The notes below the pieces were generated by a model that saw only the letters and a program-made list of their open reading frames with translations, did no database searches and was not told the DNA's origin. Shown here piece after piece: positions 5,797-63,941 of a stretch of DNA of 64,000 bases. Source of the DNA: Christiangramia flava JLT2011 (GTDB lineage Bacteria; Bacteroidota; Bacteroidia; Flavobacteriales; Flavobacteriaceae); assembly GCF_001951155.1 (NCBI RefSeq), contig NZ_CP016359.1, forward strand, positions 3,682,001 to 3,746,000. Reading direction: 5' to 3'. Both the position numbers and the translations under genes were made by a program. Positions within the stretch are counted from its first letter, which is position 1. Each line of letters opens with the position of its first letter.

Positions 5797-7328
5797 GAGT
5801 ACGCGTCGTGTTTTTTCAAATATTCGGTGATAGCCTGTAATTCTTTATAAATTGGCTGATCTTCTTTTAATGCCGGTAGCAACTTCTTCAGAATCTCAAA
5901 TTTCCGAAGACTTGGGGACGACAACTTTTCATTCACTTTTAAATAATACAAAGCTTGAACGATAGTAGCAATTTCTACTGAAAGCACTTCGAAAGCATTG
6001 TCGATGACCTTCCTGGTAAGCAAGGCCGAATTGGCGCCCATGCTCACGATATCCTGATTATCGTTATTATTTGGAATACTGTGCACATACATCGAGTTCG
6101 ACAGCATCTGGTTTTCAGCAGTTGTGGAAACCGCCGCAAACTGCGCCCCCTGCATTCCAAAATTGAGTCCCAGCCTGGAAAGGTTCACAAATGCCGGCAG
6201 AATATTATTTAAATTGGGATTGAGCAGGTAATTGAGCTGCCGTTCAGCCAGCATGCTCATTTTCGCAACCACCAGACGTAATTTGTCATTTTCAAGGGAA
6301 ATATAATCTCCATGAAAATTCCCACCGTGAAAAACCTGTTCTTTTGCGGCATCGATGATCGGGTTGTCGTTGGCCGAATTCACTTCCTCTAAATGAATTC
6401 GCAAGGCCTGTTCAATGGTATCATAAACCGGCCCCAATACCTGCGGAACGCAGCGTAAACTGTAATATTCCTGAACTTTTTCTGAAAACTGGTCGGTTTT
6501 CTTCGCTTTTTCCTCGTAGAGATGTTCATGCCTTTTCCGAGTAAGATGAGAATCAGCCAGATGCTCACGCATCATACGGGCGATTTTCTGTTGGCCGCGG
6601 TGCTTTTTGGCCGAATTCAGCTCTTCGGAAAAATGATCATCATACGCCTCTACGATCTCGTTGATCGCCGAAGAACAAAAAACTGACCATTCCATTAGTC
6701 TTTTCGCGTAGATCAGGTTCACCAAACCGATCCCGGTCATTGCCGAAGTTCCATTCAGCAGCGCAAGACCTTCGCGAATATGAATCGAAATGGGGTTGAT
6801 TCCCAAATTTTTAAAAACGGTGCACGTTTCCTGTCGAGTTCCATCGTAAAAAACTTCTCCTTCTCCAATCAGTACCAGCGCCAAATGCGCCAGTTGCACC
6901 AGGTCCCCGGAGGCACCTACCCCGCCATGCTCAAAGATGAGCGGGACCACATTCTTGTTCAGCAGCTGTTGCATGGTCTCGATCACCTCGCGGTGAATCC
7001 CTGATTTACCAAGGGCCAGCGTATTCATCCTGGCCAGCATCAACGCACGAACATTTTCTGCACTTAGCGGTTTTCCGGCACCTGCAGCGTGGCTGCGAAT
7101 CAAATTATACTGTAAATTCTCGCAATCTTCATCCGGAATACGATATTGCGCCATCGGGCCAAAACCCGTATTCACCCCGTAAATGATCTTATCTTTGGAA
7201 AAGTCCTGAAGAAATTCAAAACTTTTGTCGACTCTCTGAAGAATTTCTTCCTCAATTTCTACCGATTTATTTTCAAAAAGAACCTGATAAAAATCCTGAA
7301 ATTCTAACTCCTTTTTTATCTTCAGCAT
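5793..7328 (-). CDS. tal: Tyrosine ammonia-lyase (HAL/PAL/TAL family), flexirubin starter enzyme
   Basis: The 511-residue protein would convert L-tyrosine to 4-coumarate, the aryl starter of flexirubin. Ala139-Ser140-Gly141 in GGVGASGDLVQLAHL would form the MIO prosthetic group; Tyr50 in IYGVNTGFGPMAQ is the catalytic tyrosine, and NSANDNPI is also conserved. From memory, the N-terminal third closely resembles the Flavobacterium johnsoniae tyrosine ammonia-lyase, which favours TAL over HutH; there are no hut neighbours either. An in-frame extension to 7526 is possible, but it would overlap the divergent gene at 7413. The ATG at 7328 gives the normal family length. It is the first gene of the pigment operon. 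Confidence 0.9.
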   Translation of the reverse strand: MLKIKKELEFQDFYQVLFENKSVEIEEEILQRVDKSFEFLQDFSKDKIIYGVNTGFGPMAQYRIPDEDCENLQYNLIRSHAAGAGKPLSAENVRALMLARMNTLALGKSGIHREVIETMQQLLNKNVVPLIFEHGGVGASGDLVQLAHLALVLIGEGEVFYDGTRQETCTVFKNLGINPISIHIREGLALLNGTSAMTGIGLVNLIYAKRLMEWSVFCSSAINEIVEAYDDHFSEELNSAKKHRGQQKIARMMREHLADSHLTRKRHEHLYEEKAKKTDQFSEKVQEYYSLRCVPQVLGPVYDTIEQALRIHLEEVNSANDNPIIDAAKEQVFHGGNFHGDYISLENDKLRLVVAKMSMLAERQLNYLLNPNLNNILPAFVNLSRLGLNFGMQGAQFAAVSTTAENQMLSNSMYVHSIPNNNDNQDIVSMGANSALLTRKVIDNAFEVLSVEIATIVQALYYLKVNEKLSSPSLRKFEILKKLLPALKEDQPIYKELQAITEYLKKHDAYS

Positions 7329-46852: not shown

Positions 46853-46938
46853 AATTCAATAAATAACTTATATTCAAAGACTTTCCATAACGGGGAGTCT
46901 TTCTTTTTTTACCCCATTATTTTTTTAAAAAAAATTCA

Positions 46939-47053: not shown

Positions 47054-47127
47054 GGTCGCGTAGCTCAGTTGGATAGAGCATTTGCCTTCTAAGCAAACGG
47101 TCGCAGGTTCGAATCCTGCCGCGATCA
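47054..47127 (+). tRNA. tRNA-Arg(TCT)
   Basis: The acceptor stem is GGTCGCG/CGCGATC with one GU pair, the anticodon stem-loop TTTGC-CTTCTAA-GCAAA gives anticodon TCT, and the T arm is GCAGG-TTCGAAT-CCTGC. The CCA is not encoded. Confidence 0.95.
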
Positions 47128-47135
47128 CTGTAAAT

Positions 47136-57417: not shown

Positions 57418-57840
57418 TTAGAGTTCTATACTCAAATAGCCTTTCTTTTGAAGTTGAAAATCATGCAAGATGCCATTGTCTACGACTTCAAGTTCCTCAG
57501 GAATATCTTCTTTACTGACTTTGAATTTTTTCAGAGAAAACCCACACACCACAATTTTAACGTGGGCTTTTTGAGCTTTTTCAATAAATTTTTTCATCAT
57601 TTCCTTATCAGTGAGATCTTCAACAGTCTTTCCGCAGATGATCGCCTGAAAATCGCCAAAGCTCTTCCCATCTTCTTCCGCCAGGGCTTCAGCCGTCAAA
57701 ATTATTGGCTGGAGTTGGGGGATCTTTTTAGTGAGCACCACATAATTATGTGAGTGGTGATCCTGTTTGGAGGTTTGCGCGTTTAATACATTTGTGAACG
57801 TTAGTGTAAGGATAAATAATCCTAAAATTAGCTTTTTCAT
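57418..57840 (-). CDS. Exported DsrE-like protein
   Basis: A 140-residue protein with a signal peptide (LFILTLTFTNVLNAQT) and a DsrE/DsrF-like alpha/beta domain. A conserved-type Cys lies in KIVVCGFSLKKF, where DsrE-family proteins carry their sulfur-transfer Cys. A periplasmic DsrE suggests handling of persulfide or sulfane sulfur outside the cytoplasm. It overlaps the DoxX gene by 4 bases. A second DsrE gene is at 63414. Confidence 0.78.
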   Translation of the reverse strand: MKKLILGLFILTLTFTNVLNAQTSKQDHHSHNYVVLTKKIPQLQPIILTAEALAEEDGKSFGDFQAIICGKTVEDLTDKEMMKKFIEKAQKAHVKIVVCGFSLKKFKVSKEDIPEELEVVDNGILHDFQLQKKGYLSIEL

Positions 57841-58244
57841 AATTTTTCTTTTTTAAAAGTTTGAATATCGTTTAATATAAAAAACAGGAGTCCCCCTAAG
57901 ATTGCTATATTTTTAAAAAGAGGTCCTAAAGTGTGAATTTGTCCAACCTGGACGGTTAATGTAATTGGTATAATAACAGCAGCAAGAGCTATCGCTGCCC
58001 AGCGTGTCTTAAAGCCAATCAGGAGAAAAAAGCCTGCAATCATCATTACTATTCCAGATATGATCACCAGGTACTCCGGATTCCCAAAAAAGTAGGCTAT
58101 ACCTTTAAACCTTGCCTGATCAATTCGGTTTAATGTCTTTTCAAGATTTAAAATATGATTAAAACTTGCTACTAAAAATATTCCGCTAAGTAATATGCGA
58201 AATAGCTGTACCGATCTATAGGATACAGAAATTTTTGCTTTCAT
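57837..58244 (-). CDS. DoxX-family membrane protein
   Basis: A 135-residue protein with about four membrane helices (LFRILLSGIFLVASFNHIL, YLVIISGIVMMIAGFFLL, WAAIALAAVIIPITLTV). This is the DoxX/DoxD-type fold; some members are subunits of thiosulfate:quinone oxidoreductase. I chose ATG 58244 (MKAKISVSY); the longer form would start with TTG at 58310. It overlaps the DsrE gene by 4 bases. A sulfur role fits the context but is inferred. Confidence 0.75.
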   Translation of the reverse strand: MKAKISVSYRSVQLFRILLSGIFLVASFNHILNLEKTLNRIDQARFKGIAYFFGNPEYLVIISGIVMMIAGFFLLIGFKTRWAAIALAAVIIPITLTVQVGQIHTLGPLFKNIAILGGLLFFILNDIQTFKKEKL

Positions 58245-58306
58245 TAATTTCAATAGTTTAGGTGTATAAATTAGTTTAGCATAACGTATATCTAAACCAG
58301 TTCTAG

Positions 58307-58669
58307 TCAAATCACCATTGAATATTTAGGAGGTGGGTATAATTTTTTAGAGTGGTCATTACTTTTTTGAAGTTTTCGATATTTGAATTGCTTATCTACA
58401 GAGTATGAAACTTCAGGAATATCTTTTCCTACAGGCTGTTGATAATTATTAGAACAGATCCTGGCTAGTTTCAATACATGCACCCGGGAAGAAGCTTTAA
58501 ATTGGTAGCCCAATTTCTTCATATCGTCACTTTTCTTCTCACAAATAGGGTTTAATAGCACAATTTCATTAGTCTTAAGTAACAAACTAAATAATTCAGA
58601 ATCTATGGTGATAAGTTTTCCGGAAAAAATCACCAGCATAATTATCGCTATATATTGTTTTATTAGCAT
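58307..58669 (-). CDS. Hypothetical exported or membrane-anchored protein
   Basis: A 120-residue protein with an N-terminal hydrophobic segment (YIAIIMLVIFSGKLITI) and a basic C-terminal tail. Cysteines occur in NPICEKKSD and ARICSNN. No known domain. Its ATG lies almost at the start site implied by the -7 box at 58678-58685, so translation may be leaderless or begin at a Met 10 codons later (58639). It is first in the minus-strand DoxX-DsrE unit. Confidence 0.55.
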   Translation of the reverse strand: MLIKQYIAIIMLVIFSGKLITIDSELFSLLLKTNEIVLLNPICEKKSDDMKKLGYQFKASSRVHVLKLARICSNNYQQPVGKDIPEVSYSVDKQFKYRKLQKSNDHSKKLYPPPKYSMVI

Positions 58670-58677
58670 ATGAATTT

Positions 58678-58723
58678 CAAATATATAAGAAATGATATCT
58701 ACGCCATGTAACCTTTGTTACAT
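58678..58723 (-). promoter_or_regulatory. Crp/Fnr-type operator (58706-58723) and promoter of the DoxX-DsrE unit
   Basis: The perfect palindrome ATGTAAC-CTTT-GTTACAT (58706-58723) is centred 36.5 bases upstream of the last base of a perfect -7 box, TATATTTG, on the minus strand (58685-58678). TGTAA-N6-TTACA has the spacing of Crp-family sites. The position is that of a class II activator replacing the -33 element. Confidence 0.75.
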
Positions 58724-58743
58724 AAAAAAGATGTCTTCAGTTT

Positions 58744-58788
58744 ATGTAACAATCGTTACTGAATATCTCTTTATATAGTCTTATATTG
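58744..58788 (+). promoter_or_regulatory. Crp/Fnr-type operator (58744-58761) and promoter of the DUF302 gene
   Basis: ATGTAAC-AATC-GTTACTG (58744-58761) is the second copy of the palindrome, with a degraded last arm. Its centre is 35.5 bases upstream of the last base of TATATTG (58782-58788), a weak -7 box, on the plus strand. The DUF302 ATG follows 25 bases later. Confidence 0.65.
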
Positions 58789-58812
58789 AAACTTAATTAA
58801 AAAATAAAAGCT

Positions 58813-59199
58813 ATGAAATATTATTTTGATAAGACCATTACCGGCGAATTTGAGGCAGTAATTAAAAAAGTAACCGATGAACTGGAAAAAAAAGGTTTTG
58901 GAGTTTTAACAGAAATAAATGTTACGGAAACCCTTAAGAAAAAACTAGACATCGATTTTAAAAACTATCGTATCCTGGGAGCCTGTAATGCCCCTTATGC
59001 TCACAAAGCTTTGCAGGCAGAAGATAAAATCGGTACTATGTTACCATGTAATGTAATAGTTCAGGAACTGGAAAAGGGAAAAATTGAAGTTGCCGCCGTA
59101 AATCCAATGGCATCGATGCAGGCTGTTGAAAACGAAGAATTAGAGCACATCGCCGATGAAATTGCCGACAAATTGAAAAAGGTACTAACCCAACTATAG
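58813..59199 (+). CDS. DUF302-domain protein
   Basis: A 128-residue cytoplasmic-looking protein. The sequence FGVLTEINVTETLKKKLDIDFKNYRILGACNAPYAHKAL is the DUF302 core, with a conserved Cys in GACNAP. The biochemical function of DUF302 is not established; the domain often occurs beside metal or sulfur genes. It is preceded by its own Crp/Fnr-type site. Confidence 0.85.
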   Translation: MKYYFDKTITGEFEAVIKKVTDELEKKGFGVLTEINVTETLKKKLDIDFKNYRILGACNAPYAHKALQAEDKIGTMLPCNVIVQELEKGKIEVAAVNPMASMQAVENEELEHIADEIADKLKKVLTQL

Positions 59200-59230
59200 A
59201 ACTCCTTATTTACGCAGGTTAAAATATATT

Positions 59231-60586
59231 CTAAAAATTATAATTCAAAATTAGATCCACGTGAAATAAATCTGTCTTATTTAGATAAAAATTTGGGTTA
59301 TCAGGAAAATCCCCATTTGCGAATTTAGTTACAAATAATAGTTCCGGTTTTAGGTTTTTCAATTTCTTAAAAGAGAAAAATAAATCAAGATTTATATGGG
59401 TATAATCAGGTACCGCATATTTATTTAATTCAGGATCTAAAACTGAAGGTTTCCATTGGTGGCCTATACTAAGAACCGATTTTATTTTTGACTGAGGATC
59501 GCCTAAAGTAAAAGTATCATCATAATAAATAATTAATGCATGGTTGTCTGCGGAACCTTCGCTTCGCTCCCTTTTTTGAAAACTAAATAGGAATTCCCGT
59601 CCCCATTCTCGTGGAAAAATGAACTGACCGTGAGGAAGAATTCTGTCATAGCCTAATGATAAAGAAGTATTATCGCTCCAGTTATATTTCACTTTCAAGC
59701 CCAGAATATCCGATGAATTCGCTTGAAAATAACGCAATGAATCTATCGAGTTTCCACCATCACCAATCCTGTTTTGATGCAACCATTCCATTTCGAGATC
59801 AACATTTTCGTTAATATCAAGTTTGGGTTTCAAATAAAATGAATTGGATACGTTCTCTATAAAATAGTTCCAGGTTTCAAAACTCAGGCTCTCTGTAATT
59901 TTAATATCTGCATTGGCAATAAAAAGAAAATCCGAATCTGTATTATTGGCATATTGGGCGGGATTACCAGACCAGTCCCTACCCGTAGCATATGTACCAA
60001 TACTTTCACCAATGCCATAAAATTCCCCAGTAGATCTGGGTGCCACTGCATTAAAAATCCCTGCTTGAAAATGTATGGTTTTGGTGGGGGTATATTGATA
60101 ACGAAACCCCTGAAAAAGACTTGGAATCATCCTTCCATCTTCCGGGTTGACGAAAGGGGATTTAATTTTCATACGACCCAGGCTAAATTCGTGTTGTTGA
60201 ATTTTATAATTAGCATAGAGTTCTCCAATTAAAAATATAGCTTTATTTTCTAAATTTAAACGGTCAAAAAGGCCTTCCTCATACCTGCTCAATTTTCCTG
60301 TTTGCATATCTGGAATTGTCAAATTTTGTAATCCCAAATTGGTAGAATTATAAACCGCAATCCCAAAATTTAAGTTTTCGTTCGGGATGAATTGATATTT
60401 TAACTTCCCTCCTATTGCCAGGGCCTTGAAATCTTTTAAGGATCCTTTATTAAAAGTATTCATATAGTAAGAACGCAATTGCCCGGAAAGGATACTGCGT
60501 TTTTTATCTTCTTCAAGTTCCTGTGAAATCAACGCAGTGGGGCTAAAGAATGCTAAAATTATTAAAGCGGAAAAATATCTAATCAT
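59231..60586 (-). CDS. Outer-membrane porin-like beta-barrel protein
   Basis: A 451-residue exported protein (signal ending near LISQ). It has alternating aromatic/polar strands over its whole length, e.g. KLKYQFIPNENLNFGIAVYNS and SFETWNYFIENVSNSFYL, and ends in Phe (DLILNYNF), the mark of an outer-membrane barrel. It resembles OprD/alginate-porin type proteins. Its start overlaps the cytochrome stop by 4 bases, so both belong to one operon. It may admit the sulfur substrate, but nothing shows selectivity. Confidence 0.75.
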   Translation of the reverse strand: MIRYFSALIILAFFSPTALISQELEEDKKRSILSGQLRSYYMNTFNKGSLKDFKALAIGGKLKYQFIPNENLNFGIAVYNSTNLGLQNLTIPDMQTGKLSRYEEGLFDRLNLENKAIFLIGELYANYKIQQHEFSLGRMKIKSPFVNPEDGRMIPSLFQGFRYQYTPTKTIHFQAGIFNAVAPRSTGEFYGIGESIGTYATGRDWSGNPAQYANNTDSDFLFIANADIKITESLSFETWNYFIENVSNSFYLKPKLDINENVDLEMEWLHQNRIGDGGNSIDSLRYFQANSSDILGLKVKYNWSDNTSLSLGYDRILPHGQFIFPREWGREFLFSFQKRERSEGSADNHALIIYYDDTFTLGDPQSKIKSVLSIGHQWKPSVLDPELNKYAVPDYTHINLDLFFSFKKLKNLKPELLFVTKFANGDFPDNPNFYLNKTDLFHVDLILNYNF

Positions 60587-61614
60587 TTATTTTTTGTTAA
60601 GCCGTATTCCTGTTGGTAATATTCCATAATAGGTGGAAATGGGCCATATTTATGTTGAGTTGAAGAAAAAGTATCCGCCCATGGTCCATATGGGGTTGAA
60701 ACTGGCTTTAATTTTAGATCTGGATAATCTTTTTCTAAATTACTTTTCTGAGGACGCTCAAAGCTATTGATATAACCGGCCAGATGGTAAGCCTCTTCAT
60801 CACTTAATTTAGGATTATCCCAGGTAGCCTGGCCAAAAGGCATGTTGCCCTTGATAAATTGGGCAGCGGTTATTACCCGGTGCATTCCCGCACCATTATT
60901 ATAACTGTCTGGGCCCCAAAGAGGAGGGTATTGATATCCTTTAGTGGAATCTGCCAATCGCTGACCTTGTCCATCCTCCCCATGGCAAACCGCACATTCT
61001 TTAATAAATAGTGCTTTACCTTTTTCCAGGTTAACCGCAATATCAGGAATGTTGATTTTAGGGAAACCTTTAAATTCTTTTTCCCTTTCTTCTGGTAAAT
61101 CTTCTCCCAACCATTTCATATAAGCCACGATAGATTTCATTTCCCGGGATTCTGTAGGAAGTTTTTCCCCGTCCATACTTCGTTGCATACAGCCATTAAT
61201 TCTGTCTTCAATAGTTCCTTCACTATTGGATCTTCCACGAAATTGAGGAAAACGCTCAGTAACACCTACCCATGAGGCTGACCCAGGTTGGGTACCTGCC
61301 TTTAAGTGGCAATTGATACAAGCAAGGTTGTTGCCAGCATAACGCATCCCAGGATCTTGTGCCTGAGGTCCCATATATTTCGAAGATTCGGCTATAAGCT
61401 GATACCCATATTTTACATCCGAAGGCATAAAACCTGAGGCTAACTCTGCATCAACATCTTTAGGTTGCCAGGCTTCCGAAGAAATCTCACTTTTAATAAA
61501 TAAGGAAGGATTGGAATCGAATAAAAAGATACCAATGAACAATACTACAATGAGTGCAATTAAGGAGCTAAAAAAATATGTAATGGACCTTATCAAAGAT
61601 CTAAAATCTTTCAT
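60583..61614 (-). CDS. tsdA: Dihaem cytochrome c, thiosulfate dehydrogenase (TsdA) type
   Basis: A 343-residue membrane-anchored cytochrome (N-terminal helix FFSSLIALIVVLFIGIFLF). Two haem c sites: Cys99-x-x-Cys102-His103 in LACINCHLKAG and Cys207-x-x-Cys210-His211 in ECAVCHGEDG. Cys142 in INGCMQRSMDGE corresponds to the unusual Cys haem ligand of TsdA, and Met258 may ligate the second haem. TsdA couples two thiosulfates to tetrathionate (and the reverse). The best identified sulfur enzyme of the region; it anchors the functional reading of its neighbours. Confidence 0.87.
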   Translation of the reverse strand: MKDFRSLIRSITYFFSSLIALIVVLFIGIFLFDSNPSLFIKSEISSEAWQPKDVDAELASGFMPSDVKYGYQLIAESSKYMGPQAQDPGMRYAGNNLACINCHLKAGTQPGSASWVGVTERFPQFRGRSNSEGTIEDRINGCMQRSMDGEKLPTESREMKSIVAYMKWLGEDLPEEREKEFKGFPKINIPDIAVNLEKGKALFIKECAVCHGEDGQGQRLADSTKGYQYPPLWGPDSYNNGAGMHRVITAAQFIKGNMPFGQATWDNPKLSDEEAYHLAGYINSFERPQKSNLEKDYPDLKLKPVSTPYGPWADTFSSTQHKYGPFPPIMEYYQQEYGLTKNK

Positions 61615-61673
61615 AACAATAAACTAAAAACATTCAAAATCAACAGGTTTAACCAGATAAATGCATAATTTTC

Positions 61674-61746
61674 AAACATAAAACTTACTTATAAAAAGCT
61701 ATGTAACAAATGTTACAGGGGGATAGCAATGAAGATCCTATTTTCG
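61674..61746. promoter_or_regulatory. Shared Crp/Fnr-type operator (61701-61718) between two divergent promoters
   Basis: ATGTAAC-AAAT-GTTACAG (61701-61718) lies between tsdA and the phosphoesterase gene. Its centre is 35.5 bases from the last base of TATGTTTG on the minus strand (61681-61674, tsdA). It is 36.5 bases from the last base of TATTTTCG on the plus strand (61739-61746, phosphoesterase). One operator could thus activate both promoters. Confidence 0.75.
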
Positions 61747-61768: not shown

Positions 61769-63385
61769 ATGAATAATATGTCAGGACTTAAATTATCAGT
61801 TTTGTTAGTGATTTCTTGTATCCTTTTGGCGGGATGTAAATCTGCTAAGAATATTGTGGGAACAAATTCAAATAATATAGATAAGGTTAAAAAAGTTTCG
61901 GTTTTACATACCAATGATATGCATGGTTCCTATATGCCTTTCACCACCACTTTAGATAATGCCACCGCTCAAACCGGCGATTCTATTGATAATCTAATGA
62001 GATTTGAAAAAGAGGGAAAAATAGGTGGAATGGCCTGGATGGCAACGGCTATAAAATCAATTAGAAAAGAGAAAGGGAATGACCATATAATTCTGCTTGA
62101 TGGCGGAGATACTTTTAGTGATGACCAGTTAGGGAATTTAACGAAAGGTGAAGCGATGATTCTGATGATGAATAAACTAAATTATGATTTGATGGTGCTG
62201 GGAAATCATGATTTTGATTATAGCCTGGAGAGGACTCGTGAACTGGAGACAATGGCTAATTTTCCGATGCGTGCAGCCAACATAATAGATCAGGAAACCG
62301 GAAGCCCAATCTTTCAAGATCCTTATATCATATTGGAAAGAGGTGATTTAAAAATTGGTTTGCTGCCAATTGGGTATAGGAATACTCCTCTAACAGGAAA
62401 TTCTAAAAATATCAAAGGCTTAAAATTTATTAAGGGGATAGAAGCAGTTGACAAATATCTTCCTGAATTGAAAACCAAAGCCGATATTATTGTTTTGCTT
62501 TCCCACGAAGGTATGGCGGTAGATAAAATAATAGCTGAAAAAATAAATGGGATTGATCTAATTATTGGCGCCCATAGCCATGATGTTATAGAACCACCAA
62601 TTAAAATCAACCAGACCTACGTAGTGCAGGCTTTGTCTGATGCTGCAGTATTAGGTGAAACTGAAATGATAATTACAAATAAAAAATTGTCTGGCATCAA
62701 AACGCGATATCACTATTTATGGCATGATACCTATACAGCAGATGAGGAACAGCAGAAATTAGTGAAAGAGCTTCGTAAGCCATTTGTGTCCCAACTAGAA
62801 GAAAAAATTACACAAACCGATACAATTATTGGAAGACAATATAAATCTGAAAGCCCTTTTGATAAAGTAGTGACCACGTTGATGAAGGACAATTTCAAAA
62901 CTGATGCCGCATTTCTTCCCGGTGTGGGATATGGGATTTCCTTAAAGGGAACTATTACCAGTGAGGATATATACAAGTTACTCCCTCATCCTGCAAAAAT
63001 TGTGACCCTGGAAATGACGGGAGATCAGATAAGAAAAACATTAGAGCAAACGGCTACAAATTTAAAGCCTGAAAATAAATTGGATATTGTGGGAGGTCTT
63101 ATTCAGTCATCGGGCATTCATTATCATGTAGATCTTTCCAGGCCTATTGGAAAACGGATATCAGATATAAAAATTAACAATGAGTCTTTAGTAGATAGCA
63201 AGCTATATAAAATTGCCACACATTCAGGTATGCTAAACGGGATTCATAATTATGCAGAATTTTCAAAAGGCACTAATATTGAAAAGACAGATATAATTCT
63301 AACTGAATTTATATTAGAGAAATTAAGAAAAGTAGCTGAGCTTGATTTTCCTGAAAATATGGGAGAGATTACCGTTACCAAATAA
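61769..63385 (+). CDS. Exported 5'-nucleotidase/SoxB-superfamily metallophosphoesterase
   Basis: A 538-residue lipoprotein (lipobox LLAGCKS). The metallophosphoesterase domain has all metal motifs: LHTNDMHGS, LDGGDTF, LGNHDFD, LSHEG and GAHSHD. The C-terminal 5'-nucleotidase domain follows. UshA-type nucleotidases and the thiosulfohydrolase SoxB share this architecture, and the sequence alone does not decide. SoxB function is suggested by TsdA and DsrE neighbours and the shared operator, but there is no SoxAX/YZ in the window. A second ATG at 61781 is possible. Confidence 0.83.
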   Translation: MNNMSGLKLSVLLVISCILLAGCKSAKNIVGTNSNNIDKVKKVSVLHTNDMHGSYMPFTTTLDNATAQTGDSIDNLMRFEKEGKIGGMAWMATAIKSIRKEKGNDHIILLDGGDTFSDDQLGNLTKGEAMILMMNKLNYDLMVLGNHDFDYSLERTRELETMANFPMRAANIIDQETGSPIFQDPYIILERGDLKIGLLPIGYRNTPLTGNSKNIKGLKFIKGIEAVDKYLPELKTKADIIVLLSHEGMAVDKIIAEKINGIDLIIGAHSHDVIEPPIKINQTYVVQALSDAAVLGETEMIITNKKLSGIKTRYHYLWHDTYTADEEQQKLVKELRKPFVSQLEEKITQTDTIIGRQYKSESPFDKVVTTLMKDNFKTDAAFLPGVGYGISLKGTITSEDIYKLLPHPAKIVTLEMTGDQIRKTLEQTATNLKPENKLDIVGGLIQSSGIHYHVDLSRPIGKRISDIKINNESLVDSKLYKIATHSGMLNGIHNYAEFSKGTNIEKTDIILTEFILEKLRKVAELDFPENMGEITVTK

Positions 63386-63413: not shown

Positions 63414-63941
63414 ATGAAAACAACATTAAAGATTTTAATAATTCTTACAATCAGTTTTCAAATGAAAGCACAGGAATGGCAGACTCCTGAAATAGAAGGT
63501 TATGGGAAGATCAAGTATTTTGAAGATGCAGCTGAATTACCTGACACTTCCCTAACCTATAAAATGATTTTTAATATTGATAGCGAAAAGGAAAAAGAAG
63601 GTGTTAACGTGGGGTTATGGAGAATTGCCCGGACCTTGAATATACTAAAAGCCGGAAATATATCTAATGAAAAGATTGATATTGTGGCTGTTTTACATGG
63701 AGAGGCCACTTATGCGATTTTAACTGACAAAGAATATAAAAAGCGTTTTCAAACCCAAAATCCCAATATGGGGTTATTAAGGCTTTTAAAAGAAAACGGA
63801 GTGACAGTTTTGGTTTGTGGGCAGGCTATGGCTTCAAGAAATATAGAAAAAGAACACCTCAATTTGTATGTTGAAATGGCTCTTTCAGCTTTAACTGTCT
63901 TACCGAACTATCAGTTAAAAGGCTATGCATTGATTCCTTAA
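63414..63941 (+). CDS. Exported DsrE-family protein
   Basis: A 175-residue protein with a signal peptide (IILTISFQMKAQEW). The DsrE-like domain has IDIVAVLHGEATYAILTD and a candidate active Cys in VTVLVCGQAMASR. It lies 28 bases after the phosphoesterase gene and should be cotranscribed. With the other DsrE protein it may relay sulfur in the periplasm. Confidence 0.83.
   Translation: MKTTLKILIILTISFQMKAQEWQTPEIEGYGKIKYFEDAAELPDTSLTYKMIFNIDSEKEKEGVNVGLWRIARTLNILKAGNISNEKIDIVAVLHGEATYAILTDKEYKKRFQTQNPNMGLLRLLKENGVTVLVCGQAMASRNIEKEHLNLYVEMALSALTVLPNYQLKGYALIP

Follow-up and report, generated by a model that had tools for sequence, protein, structure and literature searches.

A very probable Crp/Fnr-type activator of a sulfide and sulfane-sulfur regulon in Bacteroidota, with operators at a fixed distance from the -7 box

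What protein reads the GTAAC-N4-GTTAC palindromes in front of the sulfur genes of Christiangramia flava JLT2011, and what does it control? The palindromes lie in a 64,000-nt stretch of DNA (NZ_CP016359.1, 3,682,001-3,746,000; the window) from a 4.0-Mb genome, hereafter the home genome. An earlier note, made from the letters alone, had proposed that three of them serve four promoters at a fixed distance, as sites of a Crp/Fnr-family activator that acts at the class II position and is encoded outside the window. We followed this arrangement through a phylum set of 296 Bacteroidota genomes and a close set of 59 relatives, the latter including 24 genomes of the home genus. The operator, its geometry, the neighbourhood and specificity residue of the regulator and the content of the target genes are all established by computation. 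Taken together, they make it very probable, at the level of sequence, that a class II Crp/Fnr activator encoded near the window would read GTAAC-N4-GTTAC and govern a sulfide/sulfane-sulfur regulon.

Box distances are counted here from the palindrome centre to the end of a -7 box of the form TAnnTTTG. Operator 1 (GTAACCTTTGTTAC, 58708..58721; site start 58706, ATGTAACCTTTGTTACAT) serves the Orf120-DoxX-DsrE direction and is identical in all nine aligned sequences; the -7-like box of the Orf120 promoter (TATATTTG, 58678..58685, minus strand) ends 36.5 bp from its centre. Operator 3 (GTAACAAATGTTAC, 61703..61716; site start 61701, ATGTAACAAATGTTACAG) serves both directions, with boxes that each end 36.5 bp from the operator centre: TATGTTTG (61673..61680, minus strand) for the TsdA-porin promoter and TATTTTCG (five of six bases, 61739..61746, plus strand) for the SoxB-like promoter. 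Operator 2 (GTAACAATCGTTAC, 58746..58759; site start 58744, ATGTAACAATCGTTACTG, with the outer base off) serves DUF302 and retains its strict core in eight of the nine aligned sequences. Its box, TATATTGA (58782..58789, plus strand), is weak and stands in the same register, which in eight aligned places of relatives holds TATCTTTA five times, TATATTTA twice and TATATTGA once, in a near-identical island copy. The three palindromes and four promoters of the earlier note are accordingly present, sites and boxes alike. Its fixed distance is exact for three boxes, but the fourth, that of DUF302, is weak in the window, and its value of 35.5 bp is the result of counting to the G and becomes 36.5 bp in the alignment register.

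Taken alone, the palindrome is no commoner in the home genome than its control, with 18 near-copies of TGTAACN4GTTACA at up to one mismatch as against 15 for the pattern read backwards. In the window alone, at up to two mismatches, there are four matches where 1.57 are expected, and 10 of 100 shuffles reach four. The strength of the case therefore lies in the combination of palindrome and box. The exact compound pattern, GTAACN4GTTAC-N22-TANNTTTG, occurs nine times in the home genome, at 61 places in 26 of the 296 phylum genomes, and in 35 of the 59 relatives, among them every one of the 24 genomes from the genus; the same pattern reversed gives 0 in both sets. With up to two mismatches, the compound is found at 24 places in the home genome and the control at four. 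Across the ~14-66 bp scanned in the home loci, an exact TAnnTTTG stands at 36.5 bp in nine of 34 directions and at no other distance, while in 65 loci of relatives 76 of 318 directions have it at 36.5 bp, with six occurrences for the other distances combined. Strict GTAACN4GTTAC palindromes in eight home loci have a box of at least five of six bases exactly at 36.5 bp, in at least one direction, in 14 of 17 cases, a figure that does not count the 14-mer over the whole genome, since these loci were chosen for holding near-matches. A geometry beyond chance, as had been claimed from the window, thus holds for the compound but not as an enrichment of the palindrome itself, which is as frequent as its control and yet not randomly placed.

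Nine places in the home genome match the compound with one mismatch; that at 1303456 lies upstream of a DUF983-like gene, and that at 2113892 falls within a long frame and is probably fortuitous. The palindrome at 7135 in locus L027 is likewise within a frame, and no box accompanies it. Conservation of the footprint could be followed at the TsdA promoter, where a search of the close set gave 21 places in 17 of the 59 genomes; two of these places are the halves of a single gene, which leaves 20 genes. Site and box at 36.5 bp are retained in all ten genes of at least 63% identity (with one mismatch in two of them) and in none of the ten below 63%. Among 129 unique exact promoters no conserved -33 element was found, TTG occurring in the first eight spacer positions in 13, and no spacer column is conserved. 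A missing -33 element is as expected of activator-dependent promoters, in which the operator, centred near -41.5 in the class II arrangement, would replace the upstream element.

A candidate for the activator lies close at hand. PF13545, the Crp-type helix-turn-helix domain, matches at seven places of the home genome, five of them over the cut-off, and among these five are two genes of one subfamily that adjoin sites of this type. Regulator gene 1 (L023:10771-11454, equivalent to C1:3750771-3751454, minus strand) lies 4.8 kb beyond the window and closes a YeeE operon with a site of its own. Regulator gene 2 (C1:3171894-3172526) is 63% identical to it. The expectation that the regulator gene would lie outside the window, and could be recognised as a Crp/Fnr gene with the same site in its neighbourhood, has therefore been borne out twice in this genome. 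The best PDB match of the regulator is 3DV8, others being NtcA, Vfr, CRP and DNR, and its effector region aligns with 3dv8 and NtcA, consistent with a cyclic-nucleotide-binding-like domain. Immediately before the regulator genes no autoregulatory site was seen; regulator gene 1 follows the site-bearing YeeE pair. Of the five other Crp/Fnr-like matches in the home genome, all but that at C1:277511-277639 were examined as possible binders and rejected, as none of these four has the S-R-V helix.

Homologues of 52-78% identity occur in 65 loci from Flavobacteriaceae, Weeksellaceae, Sphingobacteriaceae, Saprospiraceae and Porphyromonas loveana. At least one GTAACN4GTTAC is present in 61 of these loci, 159 in all, whereas a rearranged control string gives five. 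A homologue at E≤1e-45 is found in 23 of the 26 compound-bearing genomes and in 64 of the 296 overall. At E≤1e-56 the compound is found in 21 of 31 genomes with a homologue and in five of 265 without (Fisher test, 3e-20), the cut-offs having been set after the list and its E-values were known and the counts tallied by hand. Of 26 Porphyromonas genomes, that of P. loveana alone has this regulator subfamily (loci L255 and L258); its only two exact sites stand before TauE and persulfide dioxygenase genes, on a different contig from the regulator, and the regulator and these two site-bearing genes look like a lateral gain.

The residues aligned with CRP positions 180 and 181 are Arg-Val in the two home regulators and in the 65 named homologues, with one Arg-Ile. 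Among 20 more distant homologues, 11 have Arg-Glu and nine Arg-Val; all 11 of the former are without a site in ~6.6 kb, and six of the latter have one. The Arg-Val label needs two changes on the regulator tree, which comes from a quick search and has long branches, and a single origin of Arg-Val is for that reason not established.

The genes behind the promoters define the character of the regulon. Boxes of at least five of six bases stand at 36.5 bp in 15 directions in the home genome. A gene follows in 13 of them: two TauE, two YeeE, SQR, rhodanese, cytochrome bd subunit I, two TsdA (both in TsdA-porin pairs), a SoxB-like gene, two Orf120 and a fatty-acid hydroxylase. Four weaker promoters precede an MBL-rhodanese persulfide-dioxygenase operon (so labelled from the domain order, MBL plus rhodanese, and from sub-cut-off NCBIfam matches), DUF302, a third TauE and the DUF983-like gene. 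Genes downstream of sites elsewhere were labelled by their best BLAST match (E≤1e-5) to proteins of the home genome or its relatives with Pfam assignments. Outside the home genome there are 52 compound places in the phylum set, two of which were dropped as sequences already counted. Of the remaining 50, 27 lie upstream of persulfide dioxygenase (12), rhodanese (6), TauE (4), SQR (2), SulP (2) or YeeE (1), families matched by none of 146 open reading frames from control regions. Four of those 146 match the reference set at all, three of them in a stretch of G332, another species of the genus, near its own sulfur genes. The other places include DUF983 and cytochrome c-like genes (two each), hcp, cytochrome bd, redoxin and Orf120 (one each), three other genes and one place with no frame. 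The sulfane-sulfur/thiosulfate regulon suggested by the window is therefore supported by gene content as a sulfide/sulfane-sulfur module, and one larger than the window alone could reveal.

In the mechanism that we propose, a Crp/Fnr-family dimer would bind GTAAC-N4-GTTAC centred at about -40/-41 and touch RNA polymerase at the class II position, on promoters with a -7 box TAnnTTTG and no -33 box. Here we infer binding, start sites, and activation rather than repression; the class II activator of the earlier note finds support in the regulator genes at sites, the phylum-wide spacing and the lack of a -33 element. Activation would raise expression of SQR, persulfide dioxygenase, rhodanese, TauE, YeeE, cytochrome bd, the TsdA-porin pairs, the SoxB-like protein, DsrE and DoxX, as well as of genes of uncertain role (DUF302, Orf120, the DUF983-like gene and the fatty-acid hydroxylase). 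The likeliest signal is persulfide or polysulfide made from sulfide, which would be sensed by Cys77 and the Cys83-Cys84 pair of the effector cassette. These three cysteines (C-x5-CC) are invariant in 27 aligned regulators, are the only ones of the 210-residue home protein, and lie in a stretch that aligns with the effector region of Crp/Fnr proteins and that we take to be the former nucleotide cassette. Judged from the gene content and these cysteines, such a signal is a real possibility, about evenly poised and leaning slightly towards doubt.

Several observations weigh against these proposals. As regards the regulon, 11 of the 50 genome-wide places lie upstream of an outer-membrane efflux gene without an established sulfur link. 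As regards the regulator, three genomes with the compound (G099, G230 and G238) have no homologue at E≤1e-45, three of the nine more distant Arg-Val homologues have no nearby site, and in G162, where two compound sites precede TauE and persulfide dioxygenase, the sole homologue at E≤1e-45 is an Arg-Glu protein. As regards the cysteine sensor, several Arg-Glu paralogues also retain the CC pair, and the Arg-Val homologue L200 is without one of the cysteines. To these may be added the control-level frequency of the palindrome on its own.

The alternative that survives best, although we consider it unlikely, is an HcpR-type activator that senses haem or nitric oxide (NO), with the sulfur genes belonging to a nitrosative or a general redox response. 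The operator consensus of HcpR2 is identical (PMC1274295), and PgRsp, a 35%-identical protein, binds haem (PMC6955866), because of which haem could be a ligand of the home regulator too. Exact sites with the same operator-to-box geometry also stand before hcp in G238 and in three Porphyromonas genomes other than P. loveana, which together have five exact sites, three before hcp (called by NCBIfam in L264 and L267, and by a near-identical start in L265) and two before a small cupin-like gene named by eye. That the same promoter architecture also serves hcp is as expected for HcpR2-type regulators. Conversely, hcp (TIGR01703) was not found in the home genome, for which an hcp-only regulon is therefore rejected, the home regulators have Val and not Pro at position 181, and genome-wide the sulfur content at 27 of 50 places compares with hcp at one.

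It is improbable that the regulator senses oxygen limitation or the general redox state, in which case the sulfur genes and cytochrome bd would both be microaerobic functions. Fnr-type proteins often sense oxygen or redox state, and cytochrome bd is within the regulon, but the targets are for the most part sulfur transporters and enzymes acting on sulfide or persulfide, and the home protein, with its cysteines at 77, 83 and 84 only, has no N-terminal Fnr-type cysteine cluster. Quite improbable, in our view, is repression rather than activation at these sites: the operator is near the promoter, and persulfide sensors of other families are mostly repressors, whereas the fixed 36.5-bp spacing and the lack of a -33 element fit an activator touching polymerase. 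Chance palindromes in AT-rich intergenic DNA, for which the control-level frequency of the palindrome would speak, can be dismissed with near certainty on the compound-pattern controls (61 places as against 0) and the conserved footprints in the TsdA and DUF302/Orf120 promoter alignments.

The genes that such a Crp/Fnr activator would control within the window fall into four directions. Behind operator 1, on the minus strand, lie the small protein Orf120 (58307..58669, no Pfam match), a DoxX-family membrane protein (57837..58310, PF07681), whose listed TTG start may be too far upstream, and a DsrE-like protein (57418..57840, PF02635). Orf120 has 18 homologues, the named ones coming from Zunongwangia, Gramella/Christiangramia and Gillisia. 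The DUF302 protein (58813..59199, plus strand, PF03625) follows operator 2. From operator 3, the minus strand leads to a TsdA-like dihaem cytochrome c (60583..61614; PF21342, PF00034) and an OprD-like porin that overlaps its end (59231..60586, PF03573). The plus strand leads to a SoxB/5'-nucleotidase-like protein (61769..63385; PF00149, PF02872), which scores 277 bits against TIGR04486 (SoxB), below the cut-off of 550, and then to a second DsrE-like protein (63414..63941, PF02635).

Small proteins without a Pfam match recur as the first gene behind an operator (58307-58669 in the window, L023:10357-10749, L024:16266-16685 and L079:12353-12733), and these have a hydrophobic start and a few cysteines. 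In the home genome, the fatty-acid hydroxylase (L024:17832-18710) stands behind a perfect operator and box, and closely similar promoters occur in many genomes of the genus. Two further perfect operator-box promoters there (L024:14917, minus strand, and L025:4781, plus strand) have no clear gene, aiming at the 3' end of a nitroreductase gene or at a convergent gene, and might drive small RNAs or antisense transcripts. In L245 (890-6792) a regulator gene is immediately followed by an outer-membrane efflux gene that has a perfect site, and the frames that follow resemble, by eye, an adaptor and an RND pump.

The window's sulfur genes also have a distinct genomic setting. From window position 46922 to 11 kb past the window end (G000:C1:3728922-3757019), 28.1 kb are 99.2% identical to G332; the flanks are diverged, the next aligned block being 72% identical. 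The block starts ~130 bp before a tRNA-Arg(tct) gene (47054-47128), with a partial tRNA copy adjoining, and ends 11 bp past a one-mismatch operator upstream of a TauE operon. Its cargo comprises an ArsR-type gene, MerT-HMA, a Pyr_redox_2 flavoprotein, an RND metal-efflux-like set and the sulfur module. Since the shared block holds both the regulator and the operators, the window's part of the regulon sits on an island and moves along with the gene and the sites that would control it.

Operator, box and adjacent regulator together offer a ready predictor of this regulon for any genome of the phylum, and they suggest a part in the sulfide response for the unstudied Orf120, DUF983, DUF302 and DoxX-DsrE pairs. 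The closest known system is that of HcpR2, whose operator, GTAACnnnnGTTAC, was published in 2005 by Rodionov et al. (PMC1274295) and is matched by the window operators. According to that paper, the GTAAC operator of HcpR2 is tied to Pro in place of Glu at CRP 181, and the regulon consists of hcp alone in most Bacteroides (PMC1274295). A preprint on HcpR of B. thetaiotaomicron gives Pro187, Ser188 and Arg191 as contact residues (PMC13370916). The two systems have in common the Crp/Fnr family, the operator and Arg at CRP 180; they differ in Pro at 181 there and Val in both home regulators, and in an hcp regulon there as opposed to sulfur metabolism without hcp here. At a single recognition residue, the natural series of Glu, Pro and Val, each associated with operators of its own, provides a clean case of Crp/Fnr specificity evolution. 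In the literature searched, the operator string (in four spellings) was found in PMC1274295 alone, and no Crp/Fnr sulfur regulator in Bacteroidota, no such subfamily, no such sulfur regulon and no strict geometry was found. The regulon, which the earlier note did not know from Bacteroidota, therefore has no match in that literature, but its operator was already known; the subfamily, the sulfur regulon and the strict geometry are apparently new. We tentatively suggest that this subfamily is the Bacteroidota activator for sulfide and persulfide, that its C-x5-CC cysteines would sense sulfane sulfur directly, and that it has operator and geometry in common with the NO sensor HcpR2. If this is true, a single promoter code serves both persulfide and NO stress, and cross-talk could occur where both regulators are present.

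PgRsp is a Crp/Fnr protein of ~207 residues, modelled on the solved structure 3DV8, which is also the best PDB match of the home regulator; it binds haem, with Cys76, Met78 and His85 named, and its reported targets are haem-uptake and oxidative-stress genes (PMC6955866). Ten Porphyromonas homologues, ~35% identical to the home regulator and mostly of 207 residues, have Cys, Met and His at the PgRsp spacing, and we infer from length and residues that they are probably PgRsp. They differ from the home regulator in having Arg-Ala (with one Arg-Val, L187), A-R for S-R and no CC pair, and they form their own clade with support 100 on the quick tree. Orthology with PgRsp was rejected on the identity of ~35%, the separate clade and the different specificity residues.

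Sulfane-sulfur regulators of other protein families (CstR, SqrR/BigR, FisR and sHdrR/SoxR) control genes for SQR, persulfide dioxygenase, rhodanese and transporters through cysteine chemistry. Of these, sHdrR/SoxR are ArsR-type regulators (PMC12423496). The regulators of this group are of the CsoR, ArsR or sigma-54 type and mostly repressors, whereas the home regulator is a Crp/Fnr protein whose putative sites have the geometry of class II activation.

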